Shown: positions 14,387 through 27,072 of the stretch, one piece after another
Position numbering within the stretch: the stretch's first letter is position 1
Layout of the letters: every line of letters starts with the position of its first letter
Assembly (NCBI GenBank): GCA_026392455.1
Contig: JAPLCB010000004.1
Location: forward strand, 186,001-250,000
Reading direction: 5' to 3'
Length of the DNA: 64,000 bases
Source of the DNA: Propionibacteriales bacterium
GTDB lineage: Bacteria; Actinomycetota; Actinomycetes; Propionibacteriales; Nocardioidaceae
Program-made: the position numbers and the translations under genes
The notes under the pieces: generated by a model
What the model was told of the DNA's origin: nothing
Database searches by the model: none
The model's input: the letters and a program-made list of their open reading frames with translations, nothing else

Positions 14387-15277
14387 ATGAGCGCGACAGC
14401 AACCGAAATGCCGAGCATCGGCGTGGTGGTGCTGTCCCAGGGAACCCGCCCGACCGACCTCGGCGCGGGCTTGGACGCCGTCCTGGCCCAGACCGACGTC
14501 CGGACCGATGTCGTGGTCGTCGGCAACGGGTGGGAACCCTCCGGACTCCCGGACGGGGTCCGCGGAGTCGCTCTGCCGGAGAACCTCGGGATCCCGGCCG
14601 GCCGGAACGCGGGCGTGCCGCACGTCGCGGGGGACCTGCTCTTCTTCCTCGACGACGACGCGCGCCCGGCGGACCGCGACTACCTCGCCCGGGCCGCGGC
14701 CATGTTCGCTGCCGATCCCGGCCTCGGCCTGATCCACCCGCGGGTGGACGCGACCCACGGGGTCGCCCCGCCGCGGTGGATCCCGCGGGTGCGCAAGGGT
14801 GACCCGCGCCGGTCCTCGCCGGCTTTCGTCCTCTGGGAGGGCGGCTCGGTGATGCGTCGGGACGCCTTCGAGGCTGCGGGCGGGTGGCCGGAGCTCTACC
14901 GGTACTCCCACGAGGGCATCGAGTTCACCTGGCGGATGTGGGATGCCGGCTTCAAGGTCTGGTACGCCGGCGACCTCGGTGTCCTGCACCCGCCGATCAA
15001 CCCGCGCCGGCACGCCACCTTCGACCGCTACAACGCCCGGCACCGCGTCTGGACCGCCCGGCGGAACCTGCCCTGGCTGTTCGCGATCGCCTACGTCGGC
15101 ACCTGGACGTCGGTCCAGGTGGCCCGCTCGATCCGCACGGCCGAGGGCCGCGCGACGCTCCGTCCCTGGTTCGCAGGGTGGCTCGAAGGCTGGCGGGTCG
15201 ATCCCGGCGGCCGTGTTCCTCTCCAGTGGTCAACCATCTGGTTGATGACCCGACTCGGACGACCCCCGGTGGTGTAG
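14387..15277 (+). CDS. GT2 family glycosyltransferase
   Basis: The 296-residue protein has a GT-A fold: IGVVVLSQGTRPTDL, NLGIPAGRNAG, then the metal-binding FFLDDDARP near residue 86, VMRRDAFEAAGGWPE and the acceptor-side EGIEFTWRMWDAGF. Members use nucleotide-sugars to extend cell-surface glycans. It has no long membrane helix, although the C-terminal 50 residues contain a hydrophobic WLFAIAYVGTW stretch that may touch the membrane. The next GT2 gene begins three bases after its stop. The A+T-rich tandem repeats just upstream are the likely promoter region. Confidence 0.88.
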   Translation: MSATATEMPSIGVVVLSQGTRPTDLGAGLDAVLAQTDVRTDVVVVGNGWEPSGLPDGVRGVALPENLGIPAGRNAGVPHVAGDLLFFLDDDARPADRDYLARAAAMFAADPGLGLIHPRVDATHGVAPPRWIPRVRKGDPRRSSPAFVLWEGGSVMRRDAFEAAGGWPELYRYSHEGIEFTWRMWDAGFKVWYAGDLGVLHPPINPRRHATFDRYNARHRVWTARRNLPWLFAIAYVGTWTSVQVARSIRTAEGRATLRPWFAGWLEGWRVDPGGRVPLQWSTIWLMTRLGRPPVV

Positions 15278-15280
15278 ACG

Positions 15281-16333
15281 ATGACAACGATGCTGTCGCG
15301 TACCGCGACGAACCCGGCGCCGGTCGCTGTGCAGCGCACCGCGTCACCGACGGTCACGCTGACCGCCCCGCCGCTCAGCGTCTTCATGGCCGTGCGCAAC
15401 GAGGAGAGCGACCTCGCCGCCAGCCTGGGGCGGATCTTCGAGCAGGACTACCCCGGCGAGTTCGAGGTCGTCCTCGCCGTCGGGACCTCGACCGACAACA
15501 CCTGGGGCGTCGCCACCGCGATCGCCGAGGTCGAGCCGCGCCTGAAGGTCGTGGCGAACCCGGCAGGGTTCACCCCGCACGGCCTCAACGCGGCTATCGC
15601 CGCTGCCGACCACGACATCCTGGTCCGGGTCGACGGGCACGCCTTCCTCCCGACCGACTACCTGCGCAGGATCGTCGCGCTCCTGGAGAGCAGCGGCGCC
15701 GCGAACGTCGGCGGCCGGATGCTGCCCACCGGGAGCGGTCCGGTCTCCCAGGCGATCTGCCTGGCGATCAGCTCGCCGTTCGGCATCGGTGGCGGTGTCT
15801 TCCGCGTCGGTGGCACCTCCGGTCCGCAGGACTCGGTCTACCTCGGCGCGTTCCGCCGCGAGGCGCTGGCCGCGGTCGGCGGGTACGACGAGTACTTCCT
15901 GCGGGCCCAGGACTGGGAGCTGAACTACCGGCTCCGCCAGGCCGGTCACTCGATCTGGTTCGACCCCGAGATCGCGGTCGGCTACCACCCGCGCTCCAGC
16001 TGGCGCGACTACGCCCGGCAGCAGTACCGGACCGGTGGCTGGCGCCGCCGGGTGGTCGAGCGCCACGAAGGGACCGCGAGCGTGCGGTACCTGGCACCCC
16101 CGGTCGCTGTGCTCGCCATCGTCCTCGGCCTGGCGCTGTCGCTGGCCGCCCCGCTGACCGTGGGCTGGCTCGCCCTCGGGCTGGCCGCGCCGATCGGTTA
16201 CCTCGCGGCCGTTCTGGCGCTCGGTCTGGCTGTCGGGCGCACTTCTCCGCTGCGGGTGCGCCTGCGGGTGCCGTTCGCGATCGGCCTGATGCACGTCGCC
16301 TGGGGGACCGGGTTCCTGCTGCGGTCCCGCTGA
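15281..16333 (+). CDS. Membrane-anchored GT2 glycosyltransferase (ExoA-like)
   Basis: The 350-residue protein has a GT2 catalytic domain (about 30-265: VFMAVRNEESDLAASLGRIFEQDYPGEFEV pattern, metal site VRVDGHA, YDEYFLRAQDWELNYRLRQAG) followed by three or four C-terminal membrane helices. The VDGHA site and overall layout match exopolysaccharide glycosyltransferases such as ExoA. It probably adds a sugar to a lipid-linked intermediate at the inner face of the membrane. It is three bases after the first GT2 gene. It runs convergently up to the pyruvyltransferase gene, with no base between the two stops. Confidence 0.88.
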   Translation: MTTMLSRTATNPAPVAVQRTASPTVTLTAPPLSVFMAVRNEESDLAASLGRIFEQDYPGEFEVVLAVGTSTDNTWGVATAIAEVEPRLKVVANPAGFTPHGLNAAIAAADHDILVRVDGHAFLPTDYLRRIVALLESSGAANVGGRMLPTGSGPVSQAICLAISSPFGIGGGVFRVGGTSGPQDSVYLGAFRREALAAVGGYDEYFLRAQDWELNYRLRQAGHSIWFDPEIAVGYHPRSSWRDYARQQYRTGGWRRRVVERHEGTASVRYLAPPVAVLAIVLGLALSLAAPLTVGWLALGLAAPIGYLAAVLALGLAVGRTSPLRVRLRVPFAIGLMHVAWGTGFLLRSR

Positions 16334-18193
16334 TCAGCTGGTGACGCGCTCGGAGTAGACCCGGACCGCCCGATCGACCGCTGCCTGGATCTCGTCGAGG
16401 ACTCCAGGCTCGATCCGCGGGGCGTGCAGGCGGCTGTGCCAGTCGACCTTGCGCAGGTCCGGCGCTGCCGGCTGCGGGAGGACGTCCTCGCCCAGGCCGG
16501 CACCGAGCGCGTAGTCGCGGTAGACGAAGTCGAGGTCCTCGGTGCCGTCGAAGGTGACCGCAGCGCACGGGATGCCGTAGGCATGGCACAACACCATCGT
16601 GCCGGCGTCGCTGGTCACCACTCCGTCGAAGCTGCCGAGCCGGCGGACCAGGGCCTCGATCTGTTCGGGCTGGGAGGCCAGCGGGCTGATCTCCTCGAGC
16701 TGCGAGCCGGTGCTGACCGGTACGTCGCCGTGCGACACGTGCCGGACGAAGGCGAGCCGGCCGTTGGTACCGCCGAGCTGCACCGGCAGGTGTCGTCCGG
16801 CGAGCAGCGTCGGATCGCCGAAGGACTCCACCGACGGTCCACCGGCGGCACGGAGCGCTGCGGCCGTCAACGGGCCGCGGACCGAGACGACGTGGGCGGC
16901 GGGGTCGACCTTGACCCCGGCGTTCAGGGCGCCGGTGCCGACCACGATCGACTGCTCGTGCGCGGACGCGATCACCGAGCCGACCATCAGCAGGTGCGGC
17001 GTGACAGCGGCGGCGTTGGGGGTCTGGAAGAGCACCGGGCGGTCGGTGATCCGGCGCAGCAGCAACGGGCTGACCCAGTTGCCGACCGCGCCGGGGAACG
17101 GGCGCGCCCACCACAGCAACGACAACGGCAGGACGTCCTCGTCCGTGGTCGGGGCAGCCAGCTGCGCGAAGGCCTCGGCCGCGGTCCGGGCGTTCACCTC
17201 GGCCTCGGTCGGGATCACCCCGCTGCTCAGCCGGCCCGCGTAACGACCGACGAGCTCGAGGTCACCCCGTTGGCCGGCCACCATCATCTGGCTGACCAGC
17301 TGGGTGCGGTGCGCGGTGGGGCGGGCCGGCTGCAGGTCTCCGGCGTCCTCGATCTCGGTGTCGGGATCCGCGAACTCGTCGTCGGGGTCGATCACGTCGA
17401 CGTTCTTGCTGCCGGCGGCGAGACGGGCCTTGACCCGGGCGAACCGCATCGCGCTCGCGGACAGGTTCCCGACCTGGCTGTAGAGCATCCGCAGGCCGAT
17501 GAAGAGCACGATCGCGTCGGGACCGGACAGGCCACCCTGGATCGCGCGCACCAGGACCAGTCCGAGCGAGACGGCCATCGCCAGGCTGGCCACGATGGCG
17601 CCCAGCTCGGCGTCGCGGATCCGTTTGCCGACCCGGTCCCCGACCTTGGTGCTGCCGGGCTTGTTGCCCTCGGCGAGGTACGCGACCTGGTGGCTGAGCT
17701 GGCGGTGGTAGATCGCCGCGACCAGCCAGAGGACCCCGGCAGCGATCAGCAGGTTCGCAAGGCCGAAGGCCGGGTCGAGGTAGGTGAACAGGGAGCAGAA
17801 CGCGACGATCTGGATCAGCGAGACCAGGGCGGTCGAGAGCTCGAAGGCAGCCGCCCAGCTCCAGGCCTCGGTGCTGGCCGGGCTGGCCGGGCGCTCCTCG
17901 CCGGAGCGCTCGAAGCCGCGGCGGAAGACCCGGACCCGGTTCAGGCGAACGACGTGGTGCAGGGCCCGGCTCAGGGCGAACGCAGCGAAGAAGATCGCCC
18001 CGCTGACCAGTACGCCGCGCGGGTCCTCGTCGTACTGCTTCGCGCCGGCCAGGATGAGGCGCGAGAACATGTGCGTCACGACGAGCTCCGAGACCGGGAG
18101 CAGCGCCATCACCAGGAGCAGGGCAGCGATCTCCCCGCGGCTGCGCCGAGCGCTGAACAGGTCGGTGAACGCCCGGAAGAAGTCGCGGTACAC
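16334..18193 (-). CDS. Polysaccharide pyruvyltransferase-like protein with ABC-exporter-like membrane domain
   Basis: The 619-residue protein has two unlike parts. Residues 20-275 form about six membrane helices laid out like the transmembrane domain of an ABC exporter (RVFRRGFE, LAEGNKPGSTKVGDRV, LRMLYSQVGNLSASAMRFARVKARL), but no Walker A or ABC signature follows. From about 310 the chain is a polysaccharide pyruvyltransferase-like module with SVRGPLTAAALRAAG, SFGDPTLL and a VVTSDAGTMVLCHAYGIPC block. Pyruvyltransferases add ketal pyruvate to glycans. The GTG start at 18193 lies one base past the stop of the upstream paralogue, so the pair is one operon. Whether the membrane part transports or only anchors is not known. 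Confidence 0.78.
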   Translation of the reverse strand: MYRDFFRAFTDLFSARRSRGEIAALLLVMALLPVSELVVTHMFSRLILAGAKQYDEDPRGVLVSGAIFFAAFALSRALHHVVRLNRVRVFRRGFERSGEERPASPASTEAWSWAAAFELSTALVSLIQIVAFCSLFTYLDPAFGLANLLIAAGVLWLVAAIYHRQLSHQVAYLAEGNKPGSTKVGDRVGKRIRDAELGAIVASLAMAVSLGLVLVRAIQGGLSGPDAIVLFIGLRMLYSQVGNLSASAMRFARVKARLAAGSKNVDVIDPDDEFADPDTEIEDAGDLQPARPTAHRTQLVSQMMVAGQRGDLELVGRYAGRLSSGVIPTEAEVNARTAAEAFAQLAAPTTDEDVLPLSLLWWARPFPGAVGNWVSPLLLRRITDRPVLFQTPNAAAVTPHLLMVGSVIASAHEQSIVVGTGALNAGVKVDPAAHVVSVRGPLTAAALRAAGGPSVESFGDPTLLAGRHLPVQLGGTNGRLAFVRHVSHGDVPVSTGSQLEEISPLASQPEQIEALVRRLGSFDGVVTSDAGTMVLCHAYGIPCAAVTFDGTEDLDFVYRDYALGAGLGEDVLPQPAAPDLRKVDWHSRLHAPRIEPGVLDEIQAAVDRAVRVYSERVTS

Positions 18194-18194
18194 C

Positions 18195-19991
18195 TCAGTC
18201 CGTTCTGGCCAGGTACGCCGCGATCCCCGCGGCGACGGCAGCCTCGACCTCGTCCAGCTTGGCAGCACTGATCTGCTCGGAACGGATCAGATCATCCCAG
18301 CCGGTACGACGCAGGTCCAGGTCGACCGTCACCGGCTCCCACGCCTCGGTCAGCCCGGCCCCCAGGGCGTAGTCCCGGTACTTCAGGCCGGTGCCGTGGA
18401 CGGCGTCCTCGAAACCGCTGAACTTCACCAGGGCGCACGGGATGCCGTAGCTGTGGCAGGCGATCATCACGTGCATGGCGCTGGTCACCACGGCGTCGTA
18501 CCCGGCCAGGGTGGTGACGAACTCGCGGATCTCGTCGGGGTGCGAGCGCAGCACGCTGACCTCGTCCCAGCCGTCGGGGACGGTGACCGGCAGGCTCGCG
18601 TGGGTGAAGTGCCGCACCAGCGCGGTCCGCCCGTTGGTCAGTCCGCGCTCGACCGGGAGGACCCGGGAGAGCAGCACCCCGGGGTCGCCGAAGCTGTCGA
18701 CGACCGGTCCGCCCTGGCGACGCAGCAGGTCGGCGGTCACCGGGCCCCGCACAGAGAGGTACTGCGCCGACGTCTCGAGCTCGATCTCGTCCGACGCGAT
18801 GCCGGTGCCGACCACGATCGAGCGGGACCGGATGAAGCGCCCGATCGAGCCGATCATCACCAGGTTCGGCTGCAGCGACACGGCGGTCGGAGCCTGGTAG
18901 CGGATCGGGCGGCTCGACGCGGACTGCAGCACCAGGGGGCTCAGCCAGTCCCCGAAGTTGCCCGGGAAGGGCCGGGGCCACCAGGTCAGGGTCAGGTGGC
19001 GGTCGCCGGTGCCGCCGCCGCTGACCGGCGCGTAGTGCGCGAACGCCTCGGCGGCCTTCTGGGCGCCAGCCTCGCTGGCCGACGGGATCGCGTTCGCGTT
19101 CAGCCGGGCCGAGATCTCGCGGACCTTCTCGAGCTCGCCGCGCTGGCCCGAGGCGATCATCTGGTTGACCAGGCCCTGTCGGTGCCGCGAGGTCCGGCTC
19201 GGGTCGTGGGACCCCTGGGTGAGCACGTGGGTGATGCCGGCGCGGTCCGCGACCCGGCGCAGCCGGTCGGCCGTCGGTGCGGACGTACGGCTCAGCCGGC
19301 GTTCGATGCGCTTGGCCCAGGCCAGCGCCCGCTTGCGGGCGTTGCCGGGCTTGCGGGCGACCCCGGCGATCTGGTCGTGCTGGACGACCTTGGACTTGAA
19401 CTCGGCGACGTTGCCGCTGGAGCCGAAGGAGAAGAAGGCCGGCACCTCGCCGCTCCCGCGGCCGATCGCCGCCGCGGACGGGACGACCTGGAAGGACATC
19501 GACGGCGCGTTGCTGCGCCAGGACTCCTCGAAGAAGTAGTCGTCGGTCGCCTTGATCTCCGAGGTGCTCTCCAGGCGCACCGCATCGGCGATGAACCGGC
19601 GGGCGGCCCCGCTGGTGTTGATCCCGAAGAAGCACGGCTCCCAGAAGCGGGTGCGGCTGGCGTAGCCGATGGTCTGCGGGGCACCGAAGCCGCGCTGGAA
19701 GCCGATCAGGTCGGCGGTGAAACCGGCGACGTAGTCGGGCAGGGCCAGCAGCTGGCAGTCGACGTCGATCCAGAAGACCTTCTTGTCCGGGTTCTCGACG
19801 CACACCCGTCCCAGGAAGCTGATCTTCTTGCGGCAGATGTCAGCCCAGTCCTCGCCGGGGGCCTTGACGATCTCCTCCAGCTCGCTGGCGACACCGATGT
19901 CGGCCAGGTTCTTCTTCAGGCGGTCGGCGTGGTCGCGGTAGTAGTCGTCGGCCGTGTAGAACGAGCAGACGATGATGCCGGAGAGATCCAT
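18195..19991 (-). CDS. Glycosyltransferase-like domain fused to pyruvyltransferase-like module
   Basis: The 598-residue protein starts with a nucleotide-sugar transferase-like domain: IIVCSFYTADDYY and the DxD metal site in KKVFWIDVDCQLLALP (DVD at 76-78), then WEPCFFGINTSGAARRF. From about 270 it carries the same module as the neighbouring gene: an HR..LV.QM linker, SVRGPVTADLLRRQG, SFGDPGVLL and VTSAMHVMIACHSYGIPC. It may transfer a sugar and a pyruvyl group to the same glycan. I chose ATG 19991 because AAGGAAG lies just upstream; GTG 20024 is an alternative. It is the first gene of a two-gene operon. Confidence 0.75.
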   Translation of the reverse strand: MDLSGIIVCSFYTADDYYRDHADRLKKNLADIGVASELEEIVKAPGEDWADICRKKISFLGRVCVENPDKKVFWIDVDCQLLALPDYVAGFTADLIGFQRGFGAPQTIGYASRTRFWEPCFFGINTSGAARRFIADAVRLESTSEIKATDDYFFEESWRSNAPSMSFQVVPSAAAIGRGSGEVPAFFSFGSSGNVAEFKSKVVQHDQIAGVARKPGNARKRALAWAKRIERRLSRTSAPTADRLRRVADRAGITHVLTQGSHDPSRTSRHRQGLVNQMIASGQRGELEKVREISARLNANAIPSASEAGAQKAAEAFAHYAPVSGGGTGDRHLTLTWWPRPFPGNFGDWLSPLVLQSASSRPIRYQAPTAVSLQPNLVMIGSIGRFIRSRSIVVGTGIASDEIELETSAQYLSVRGPVTADLLRRQGGPVVDSFGDPGVLLSRVLPVERGLTNGRTALVRHFTHASLPVTVPDGWDEVSVLRSHPDEIREFVTTLAGYDAVVTSAMHVMIACHSYGIPCALVKFSGFEDAVHGTGLKYRDYALGAGLTEAWEPVTVDLDLRRTGWDDLIRSEQISAAKLDEVEAAVAAGIAAYLARTD

Positions 19992-24986: not shown

Positions 24987-25961
24987 TCAGGCTCCCAGCG
25001 ATGCGTGGTACTGCCGGGACCTCCACGCCGACTCGACCATGTCCCGCAGGTCGTGACGCATCTGCCAGTCCAGGTCGCGGGCCGCCAGGGTGCCGTCCGC
25101 GACGATCCGGGCCGGGTCCCCGGGCCGCCGCGGGATGATCTCGGGGTCGAAGGCGATCCCGCTCACCTCACGGACGGCGTTCATGATCTCGGCCACCGAG
25201 GACCCCGCGCCGCTGCCCAGGTTGTAGACGCGCTCCAGCGGCTCGCCGTTCTCCAGGTGCCGAGCAGCGACCGCGTGCGCCGCGGCCAGGTCGGCGACGT
25301 GGACGTAGTCGCGGACGCAGGTCCCGTCTGGGGTCGGGTAGTCGTCGCCGTAGATCTTCGGGGTCCGTCCTTCGAGGAGAGCGTTGAAGATCAGCGGGAA
25401 CAGGTTGTGCTGGCTGTCGTCGAAGAGGTCGTCGGCCCCGGAGCCGACGACGTTGAAGTAGCGCAGGGACGTGTGCTTGAGGCCGGTCGCGACCTCCTGG
25501 TCGCGGATCAGCCACTCACCGATCAGCTTGGTCTCGCCGTACGGCGACTCCGGTACGGTCGGCAGGGCCTCGGTGACCAGGTCGACGTCGGTGGTCCCGT
25601 AGCAGGCGGCGCTGGACGAGAAGACCATCTTGTCGGCCCCGGCCTGCGCCATCGCGTCCAGGACGCTGACGGTCCCGGTGACGTTCTGGGTGTACGCCAC
25701 CAGCGGGACGTCGACCGAGACGCCGGCCGCCTTGAAGCCGGCCAGGTGGATCACCCCGTGGACGTCGTGCTCACGCATGATCCGCACCAGCAGCTCGGTG
25801 TCCAGGATGTTGCCTTCGTAGAACGGCACCTCGTCCTGGACGAACCGGCGGTGGCCGGTGTCCAGGTTGTCGATCACCACCGCGGGAACGGAGACGTCGC
25901 CCAGCGCACGTACGACGTGCGATCCGATGTACCCGGCGCCGCCGGTGACCAGCCAAGACAT
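24987..25961 (-). CDS. galE: UDP-glucose 4-epimerase
   Basis: GalE interconverts UDP-glucose and UDP-galactose using bound NAD. The 324-residue protein has the N-terminal GGAGYIGSH, the catalytic SSSAACYG and YGETK (YxxxK), LRYFNVVGS, DYVHVADLAAAH and RRPGDPA, all typical of the family. It would supply UDP-galactose to the surface-glycan genes at 14-20 kb and to general metabolism. Its ATG is five bases after the stop of the racemase gene, so it may be the last gene of the DUF1611-racemase-galE operon. Confidence 0.93.
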   Translation of the reverse strand: MSWLVTGGAGYIGSHVVRALGDVSVPAVVIDNLDTGHRRFVQDEVPFYEGNILDTELLVRIMREHDVHGVIHLAGFKAAGVSVDVPLVAYTQNVTGTVSVLDAMAQAGADKMVFSSSAACYGTTDVDLVTEALPTVPESPYGETKLIGEWLIRDQEVATGLKHTSLRYFNVVGSGADDLFDDSQHNLFPLIFNALLEGRTPKIYGDDYPTPDGTCVRDYVHVADLAAAHAVAARHLENGEPLERVYNLGSGAGSSVAEIMNAVREVSGIAFDPEIIPRRPGDPARIVADGTLAARDLDWQMRHDLRDMVESAWRSRQYHASLGA

Positions 25962-25965
25962 GGCC

Positions 25966-27072
25966 TCAGCCTAGGACCCGGAGCCTCGGTACGACGGGCC
26001 GACCCACCAGCTCGACCTTGGTGACGAACGGTGACGTCATCGCCCGGACCAGGGCCCCGTAGGCGAGCCCGAAGGTGATCTCGTCGCCCACCCGGACGTC
26101 GTGGTCCCCGACGTCCAGGACCAGGTGGTCGCTGCTCATCCCCAGGATCTCGATGCCGGCCGGCGGTGCCAGTCCGTCGAGGTCGACGTCCTGACGACCC
26201 AGCGCGACGATGGCCTGACGCACCGTCGCCGACCCGCTCCGGCCGGTCCGCGGTGCCGCCGCTCCGAAGGCGGCCTGGGCGCGTTCTCCCCAGGGCTGCG
26301 AGGGTTTCTCGGCGAGCTCGATCACCTCGCCGACCAGCCTGAACACGTCCGTGGCCAGGCCCGGGACCGGGGTGCGGTGCAGCGGCTCGACGCCGAGCAG
26401 GATCGCCTCGCCCAGCCTCAGGTCGTTGACCCTGCCGACCGAGCTGGTGCTCGAAGCCCAGTCCAGGTTGGCCGAGTTTCCTCCGGAGACCACGTCCAGC
26501 CGGATTCCGTGCGTCGCCTCGACGGTCTCGACCAGAGCGCTCAGCACGCCCATGTTCCGGTCGTCGGGCACGACGCCGCTCTGGCAGGCGAGGTTGGTAC
26601 CCAGGCCGACCAGCCGGAGTGCGTGCAGGCTCCCGACGTACCTGACTGCTGCGGCGACGTCGTCGGTGGCGATCCCCTCCCGGAGATCGCCGAGCTCGAC
26701 CATGAGGACCACGTCGTGGGTGCGGCGCTGGGATTTCGCGGCCCGGTCGAGGCCGTGGAGCACCGTCCGCTCGGTGTTGAACGAGACGTGGGCGGTCCCG
26801 ACGACCTGGTCGACCTGGCTGAGCATCGGGGAGCGGATCAGCGTGCGTGACGCCGGCTCCACAAGCTCAGCCAGGCGCGCCAGGTTGGGGACCCGGGAGT
26901 CGCCGAGGCCTCGGGCGCCGCCCCGGAGCATGGCCGCGCCGACCCCGGGCGACCCCAGGACGGCCTTGGTGACACCCGTGACGTCGATACCGCGTGGCGC
27001 CAGCCGGTCGACCAGCGTCCGGGTGTTCTGCTCGACCTTGTCCAGGTCGATCTCGATCCGTGGTGCCGTCAC
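25966..27072 (-). CDS. Alanine/ornithine racemase-family PLP enzyme
   Basis: The 368-residue protein has the N-terminal alanine-racemase-type barrel: IEIDLDKVEQNTRTLVDRL, the PLP-binding Lys 36 in VTGVTKAVLG, and VELGDLREG, with a C-terminal beta domain (GDEITFGLAYGALVRAM). It fits the alanine/ornithine racemase-like group, which acts on basic or other amino acids rather than wall alanine. Its GTG overlaps the stop of the DUF1611 gene (GTGA), so both are made together. Substrate is unknown; a D-amino-acid role is suggested by the partner. Confidence 0.82.
   Translation of the reverse strand: MTAPRIEIDLDKVEQNTRTLVDRLAPRGIDVTGVTKAVLGSPGVGAAMLRGGARGLGDSRVPNLARLAELVEPASRTLIRSPMLSQVDQVVGTAHVSFNTERTVLHGLDRAAKSQRRTHDVVLMVELGDLREGIATDDVAAAVRYVGSLHALRLVGLGTNLACQSGVVPDDRNMGVLSALVETVEATHGIRLDVVSGGNSANLDWASSTSSVGRVNDLRLGEAILLGVEPLHRTPVPGLATDVFRLVGEVIELAEKPSQPWGERAQAAFGAAAPRTGRSGSATVRQAIVALGRQDVDLDGLAPPAGIEILGMSSDHLVLDVGDHDVRVGDEITFGLAYGALVRAMTSPFVTKVELVGRPVVPRLRVLG

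Follow-up and report, generated by a model that had tools for sequence, protein, structure and literature searches.

What does a membrane protein do when it ends in the same module as the glycan enzyme encoded directly upstream of it? This question is raised by two adjacent genes in a 64,000-nucleotide stretch of a 3.55 Mb actinobacterial genome (Propionibacteriales bacterium, family Nocardioidaceae; NCBI GenBank assembly GCA_026392455.1, contig JAPLCB010000004.1, positions 186,001–250,000 of the forward strand), hereafter called the window. The first gene encodes a fusion of a glycosyltransferase and a pyruvyltransferase (GTPT) and the second a fusion of a membrane domain and a pyruvyltransferase-like module (TMPT). 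The membrane partner family of GTPT, including its stand-alone form of ~260 amino acids, is referred to as TM, and L and G numbers label loci and genomes, respectively. The TMPT start codon (GTG) lies 1 base beyond the GTPT stop codon, so co-translation is very likely, and both genes have a coding-like GC content at third codon positions (0.95 and 0.93). An initial annotation, made from the sequence alone, had proposed a two-part machine for making, pyruvylating and perhaps moving a surface glycan. Here, we tentatively favour, at somewhat less than an even chance, TM as an exporter-like, ATP-independent partner of a bifunctional glycosyl/pyruvyltransferase over TM as a pure scaffold.

The membrane part of TMPT is predicted to be the transmembrane domain of an ATP-binding cassette (ABC) exporter without the ATPase, as the initial annotation had read it from its six membrane helices. 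The AlphaFold2 model shows six long helices (residues 16–56, 58–98, 106–139, 141–175, 184–218 and 224–260) preceded by an 11-residue N-terminal helix, with a mean predicted local distance difference test score (pLDDT) of 94 and values mostly above 90 over residues 1–262. Structural comparison with VIA-align matched this domain to IrtB (9g2k_B; Z 18.3, root-mean-square deviation 3.1 Å, 249 of ~259 residues aligned), MsbA (7ph3; Z 17.1), PglK (6hrc_A; Z 15.4) and the ATPase-less SbmA (9g3g_B; Z 15.5, 251 aligned). All 50 structural-match rows were ABC proteins or SbmA, counting a potassium-channel row that we take to be SUR1, an ABC protein. Helical bundles can reach Z 13–14 in VIA-align without a clear relative, and the Z of 18 together with a profile match places the modelled domain above this background. 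The profile match itself, to ABC transmembrane domains of the same genome, was weak (E 1.4e-4, probability 53%), and an NCBIfam ABC exporter model was weakly matched by 4 of 42 TM relatives (best E 0.0013). Of 41 Pfam families for these 42 relatives, the 25 that were listed include no ABC family, and TM itself has no matching Pfam family. NCBIfam searches with GTPT and TMPT gave no family at E ≤ 1, and PDB sequence searches with both proteins and both alignments returned weak, apparently unrelated matches alone.

Like the type IV ABC exporters IrtAB, MsbA and PglK, TM thus appears to have a six-helix domain, which superposes on IrtB over nearly its whole length, but it lacks a nucleotide-binding domain (none was detected in TMPT by Pfam search or in the structure model) and is ~50 residues shorter than full exporters, a loss that falls, in the profile alignment, within the two ATPase-docking loops on the cytosolic side. 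PMC13316013 describes SbmA as a protein without an ATPase that has lost the coupling helices and carries a glutamate ladder. TM would share with SbmA/BacA (SLiPT) the ABC-exporter transmembrane fold without an ATPase, the shortened cytosolic loops and conserved acidic residues in the transmembrane helices; it differs in its length of ~260 amino acids, in its tie to glycan-enzyme genes and in that proton transport is not known for TM, and the helices TM0a and TM0b given for SbmA in the same text are missing from the TMPT model. Polar residues Q169, R191, E196 and R250 are invariant in the TM helices (42/42), while R86 and R235 occur in 39 of the 42 relatives (lysine in the other three), E118 in 38 and E36 in 36. 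The conserved acidic residues are thus E36, E118 and E196.

Among GTPT loci, TM genes and ABC exporters nearly exclude each other. The comparison set comprised 62 GTPT loci whose flanks span 2.5 kb or more on each side, 48 with TM and 14 without; 18 of 80 loci with less than 2.5 kb on one side, among them the TM-less L058, L085 and L105, were left out, and the rows dropped were L050, L051, L072 and L081 (the same records as G087, G089, G585 and G550) and five divergent second Paracoccus copies. Any ABC ATPase, detected with a profile built from the loci, was found within 6 kb in 6 of the 48 TM loci and in all 14 TM-less loci (Fisher p 1.3e-9). A same-strand ABC-2 exporter, defined as an ATPase (Pfam or profile match) plus an ABC2_membrane permease (PF01061), was found within ~3 kb in 0/48 and 12/14 loci, respectively. 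Of these twelve loci, seven are from Paracoccus, two from Myceligenerans and one from Isoptericola, with L102 and L104 making up the rest, and the permease was matched in every one (in L129 below the Pfam cut-off, in L104 cut by the contig end). The ATPases near TM were of the ABC-F (L044), CBS (L055), TOBE (L028) and branched-chain importer (L117) types; in L056 the ATPase belongs to an opposite-strand ABC-2 pair past intervening ribosomal genes, and in L057 it is a profile-detected gene at the same site. Fifteen TM-less genomes contain no TM anywhere genome-wide, and the same search found TM in 3/3 positive controls. ABC-2 glycan exporters (the Wzm/Wzt, KpsMT and TagGH types) adjoin GTPT in most loci without TM; they differ from TM in belonging to another permease family (ABC2_membrane) and in being ATP-driven. 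The near-exclusion lends support to the earlier suggestion that the machine might move a glycan, with transport itself being something that we infer.

GTPT is probably a bifunctional enzyme adding a sugar and pyruvate to a surface glycan, to judge from its two domains. Its N-terminal domain has a predicted GT-A fold, matching the PBCV-1 glycosyltransferase 2p6w (Z 13.5, 184 residues) and alpha-1,3-galactosyltransferase 1g8o (Z 13.2), and D76 and D78 of its DVD motif are invariant in 46/46 aligned GTPT rows, which bears out the earlier view of a nucleotide-sugar transferase-like domain. The C-terminal domain matches Pfam PF04230 (E 4.4e-9, 37.1 bits against a gathering cut-off of 25.3), as do all 46 GTPT rows at E ≤ 0.1, and its model resembles the WbbZ crystal structure 6x1l (Z 12.2, 197 residues). 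NxGD, RxxxS/T and a histidine are the motifs of polysaccharide pyruvyltransferases given in PMC10629545, and a model of the related Pvg1p, as described in PMC6801904, places R217, R337, L338 and H339 at phosphoenolpyruvate (PEP). GTPT relatives keep NxGD in 92/92 rows and the arginine and histidine in 90/90 each, two truncated rows being set aside for the latter and four duplicate rows being counted in. The domain thus shares the Pfam match, motifs and fold of ketal pyruvyltransferases of the PF04230 family (WbbZ, Pvg1p, CsaB and WcfO) but follows a GT-A domain in the same protein, has a helical lead-in and is paired with a TMPT copy without two of the three motifs. Pyruvylated cell-wall polymers of actinobacteria are known chemically according to PMC6801904, which lists for Promicromonospora citrea a 1,3-linked alpha-galactan bearing 4,6-pyruvate and a Kdn polymer that is both sulfated and pyruvylated. 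Polymers of this type would fit a galactosyltransferase-like GT-A fold joined to a pyruvyltransferase, as well as the sulfotransferase genes located close to some of the loci.

Both proteins end, as first noted, in a common module of ~325 residues that runs from 'HR..LV.QM' through the C-terminus and contains the SVRGP and SFGDP blocks (43% identity, E 7.6e-87 in a within-genome search). Although homologous to the GTPT copy, the TMPT module scores 14.6 bits against PF04230, under the gathering cut-off. The NxGD aspartate and the histidine are absent from all 12 TMPT rows (10 distinct sequences) and the arginine is present in all 12, while nine other rows carrying the pyruvyltransferase domain, including one GTPT fragment and two domains in larger proteins, keep all three motifs. 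Because the aspartate and histidine are lost throughout, the TMPT module is very probably not a pyruvyltransferase and is probably a pseudoenzyme. The pyruvyltransferase-type module recognized by the initial annotation in both proteins thus holds at the level of fold and homology, and TMPT as a second pyruvylating protein was rejected. Some structural role looks to have been kept: the AlphaFold2 model shows an intact fold for the module (pLDDT ~96), and its ratio of nonsynonymous to synonymous substitution rates (dN/dS) stays below 1, at 0.34–0.79 against 0.23–0.44 for the GTPT copy, values that are inflated by the high GC content and were used for comparison between protein parts alone. A quick tree joins eight TMPT modules (98 support) with the Janibacter pair standing apart, which may be compatible with a single origin.

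The intact fold, the PEP-site arginine and a dN/dS below 1 would also suit a module that is still catalytically active, with a changed chemistry or a different ligand, which we consider unlikely in view of the two missing catalytic residues and a dN roughly double the value for the GTPT copy. It seems highly improbable that TMPT is a functionless relic in decay: its catalytic residues are lost and the module evolves faster, but the reading frame is intact, the linkage to GTPT is tight in six members of the genus, the dN/dS of the TM part is 0.14–0.50 and the same membrane family has been retained in Actinomycetota and gammaproteobacteria. Most likely, the dead module keeps GTPT, or the glycan that GTPT acts on, at the membrane in a docking or regulatory capacity.

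What we observed of domain composition and homology, of predicted folds and lost motifs, and of gene linkage and the near-exclusion with ABC exporters can be combined into a model. GTPT would act in the cytosol, with the GT-A domain adding a sugar from a nucleotide sugar and the C-terminal domain placing a ketal-linked pyruvate, derived from phosphoenolpyruvate, on the glycan. The TM domain would form a dimer and carry what GTPT makes, either as such or in a lipid-linked form, across the membrane without ATP, possibly in analogy to the proton-driven SbmA, so filling the place given to an ABC-2 exporter at other GTPT loci. In the lineage of the window, a copy of the pyruvyltransferase module would have joined TM and then lost its active site, serving from then on as a docking or regulatory domain that keeps GTPT or the glycan at the membrane.

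Transport by TM is suggested by the whole exporter fold, by conserved charges within the helices (E36, E118 and R235) and by the replacement with ABC exporters, the last of which would not be expected of a mere anchor. Several observations weigh on the other side. The energy source, the enzymatic activities and the docking are, like transport itself, conjectural, and Foldseek gave a best E-value of 2e-3 for the membrane model (probability 1.00), with none below 1e-3. The near-exclusion is not phylogenetically independent: the twelve exporter-bearing loci represent about three clades, of which the Promicromonosporaceae clade sits inside the TM-bearing group in a quick tree, and related loci inflate the counts. 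Two Demequina loci (L059 and L094) consist of GTPT and a following GT2-type gene with neither TM nor a linked exporter, their sole ABC pair lying ~5.5 kb away on the other strand, where it also flanks the TM-bearing L056 and L057; GTPT can therefore be kept without TM. Conversely, four freshwater genomes contain TM with no GTPT found genome-wide, and therefore the GTPT product is not the only substrate of TM there.

A pure scaffold, in which TM lost transport together with the ATPase and holds GTPT and other soluble glycan enzymes near a lipid-linked acceptor, is possible though doubtful in our estimate. Fusions of TM to three kinds of soluble domain (the dead pyruvyltransferase, a GT2 in Demequina activiva L057 and a Sulfotransfer_4 sulfotransferase in L121) fit an anchor equally well, the TM gene directly follows GTPT on the downstream side in 42 of 63 loci scored by script and, judged by position, also in L055, and many of the conserved TM residues (R191, E196, R250, R253 and Q169) lie near the cytosolic ends of helices, as in a docking surface, when the topology is taken from the ABC fold. 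Against this stand the retained six-helix fold, the in-helix charges and the exchange with ABC exporters described above. Exporter-like and scaffold roles may also both be true at once. An ordinary ABC exporter served in trans by an ATPase subunit from a gene elsewhere would agree with the fold and with the ABC exporters elsewhere in the genome (9 ABC_membrane matches), but we regard it as very unlikely given that none of the 48 TM loci has a linked export-type ATPase and that the ~50 missing residues align to the ATPase-docking loops.

If the exporter-like reading is extended to the family, TM could be a new family of ATP-independent glycan exporters, derived from an ABC exporter transmembrane domain, that forms a unit with the bifunctional enzyme and replaces ABC polysaccharide exporters, with the dead pyruvyltransferase as an adaptor coupling synthesis to export in Nocardioides/Marmoricola, Janibacter, Microbacterium and one more genus; we put this forward as a conjecture that is rather less probable than not. 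In the literature that we consulted, ATPase-less proteins with the ABC exporter fold have so far been described for peptide uptake (SbmA). A second such branch, tied to surface glycans, would suggest that the fold was freed from its motor more than once and would add a further route of glycan export besides the flippase and the ABC exporter. Moreover, the paired dead and live pyruvyltransferase modules offer a clean test of how a glycan enzyme is held at the membrane, and GTPT provides a sequence handle on the pyruvylated cell-wall glycopolymers of actinobacteria.

GTPT relatives were collected in one scan of named genomes (95 found, 80 kept), where the names of metagenome-assembled genomes (MAGs) are record titles and several look mislabelled, e.g., 'Bifidobacterium breve' and 'Fonsibacter'. 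The hosts are many Actinomycetota including freshwater MAGs, Paracoccus, two MAGs titled Thioalkalivibrio, Vibrio renipiscarius, Marinobacter daepoensis and two other gammaproteobacterial MAGs. The distribution is patchy and rare: in a class sample the glycosyltransferase domain occurred in 4 of 394 genomes, all within the eight that have the membrane domain, and in a phylum sample both domains occurred in the identical two of 396 genomes. A scan of viral contigs gave 46 stretches, of which none was a relative. When the pair was sought in other actinobacterial genomes, as the initial annotation had suggested, full-length TMPT stood beside GTPT in six of the 24 listed genomes of the same genus (its own included) and in no other genome among the 294 of the family that were searched; a further 11 gave weak matches, confined to the C-terminal module. 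The shuffling of membrane part and module that had been noticed is real but lineage-specific: of 70 membrane-protein open reading frames (ORFs) in the loci, duplicates included, 57 stand alone, mostly as a separate gene of ~260 amino acids, 11 carry the dead module and two carry another enzyme, and the dead-module fusion is confined to the window genus, Janibacter, Microbacterium and G431. A literature search, outside which lay most subscription papers and all preprints, returned no title describing this layout.

Near the TM-less locus L058, a 588-amino-acid protein (L058:7484-9250, minus strand) is predicted to contain six membrane helices, has a long soluble C-terminal region and gave no Pfam match at E ≤ 0.01. 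As a TM relative it was rejected (hhalign probability ~1%); it may be a further case of an ATPase-less membrane domain in fusion with an enzyme, a reading without support from the profile comparison.

The features of the locus are given in Table 1. Its two GT2 genes, which the initial annotation had also pointed out, converge on the GTPT–TMPT pair. The first ORF calls of 644 and 609 amino acids were rejected as the true proteins, their extra N-termini being due to upstream in-frame starts.

Table 1. Positions of the gene pair, its domains and the neighbouring glycosyltransferase genes in the window.
Feature	Window position	Strand	Size, residues or match
GTPT, putative bifunctional GT-A glycosyltransferase and polysaccharide pyruvyltransferase	18195-19991	-	598 aa
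GT-A domain of GTPT	19362-19991	-	~residues 1-210
DxD motif 'DVD' in the GT-A domain of GTPT	19758-19766	-	residues 76-78
Shared module in GTPT, helical lead-in and PF04230 domain, motifs all kept	18198-19184	-	residues 270-598
TMPT, predicted ABC-exporter-like transmembrane domain and degenerate pyruvyltransferase module	16334-18193	-	619 aa
Transmembrane domain of TMPT, no ATPase	17408-18193	-	residues 1-262
Acidic linker of TMPT	17312-17407	-	residues 263-294; pLDDT <50 at 272-283
Shared module in TMPT, NxGD Asp and active-site His lost	16337-17311	-	residues 295-619
GT2a glycosyltransferase	14387-15277	+	PF00535 E 7.6e-9
GT2b glycosyltransferase	15281-16333	+	PF00535 E 3.8e-17

Relatives of GT2a lie near 7 of 9 TMPT loci, and the five other loci of the genus have a GT2a relative nearby in five cases and a GT2b relative in four, with varying orientation; GT2b relatives also adjoin stand-alone membrane proteins and ABC-2 exporters. 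Such neighbour-gene counts are low estimates, with ORFs overlapping GTPT excluded. Among the 39 stand-alone-TM loci with full flanks, 30 have a small GT2 ('YSSL'), six a sulfotransferase and ten a set of two CDP-alcohol phosphatidyltransferases and an NTP transferase. A freshwater actinobacterial cluster (L086, L090, L092, L095, L096, L097 and L117) consists of a sulfotransferase, GTPT, an NTP transferase, two CDP-alcohol phosphatidyltransferases (one with DUF5941 in L045), TM and a small GT2. Farther along the window, a gene group that starts at 24987-27072 comprises genes resembling those for UDP-glucose epimerase and alanine racemase, followed by additional ORFs as far as a leucyl-tRNA-synthetase-like gene; the same group also adjoins the pair in L026.

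Other arrangements of pyruvyltransferase domains were encountered at several loci. The gammaproteobacterial L118–L121 encode GTPT and a separate small pyruvyltransferase with intact motifs, such that two pyruvyltransferase modules per locus recur there as separate, active-looking genes. Five Paracoccus loci (L106–L110, at ~13.4–15.7 kb) contain a second, divergent glycosyltransferase–pyruvyltransferase fusion after the ABC-2 exporter genes. Proteins of ~900 amino acids with a C-terminal GT8 domain are encoded near GTPT at L061:2292-5015 and L102:11671-14304, the latter with a weak PF04230 match ahead of the GT8 domain, and it is perhaps another pyruvyltransferase–glycosyltransferase fusion.

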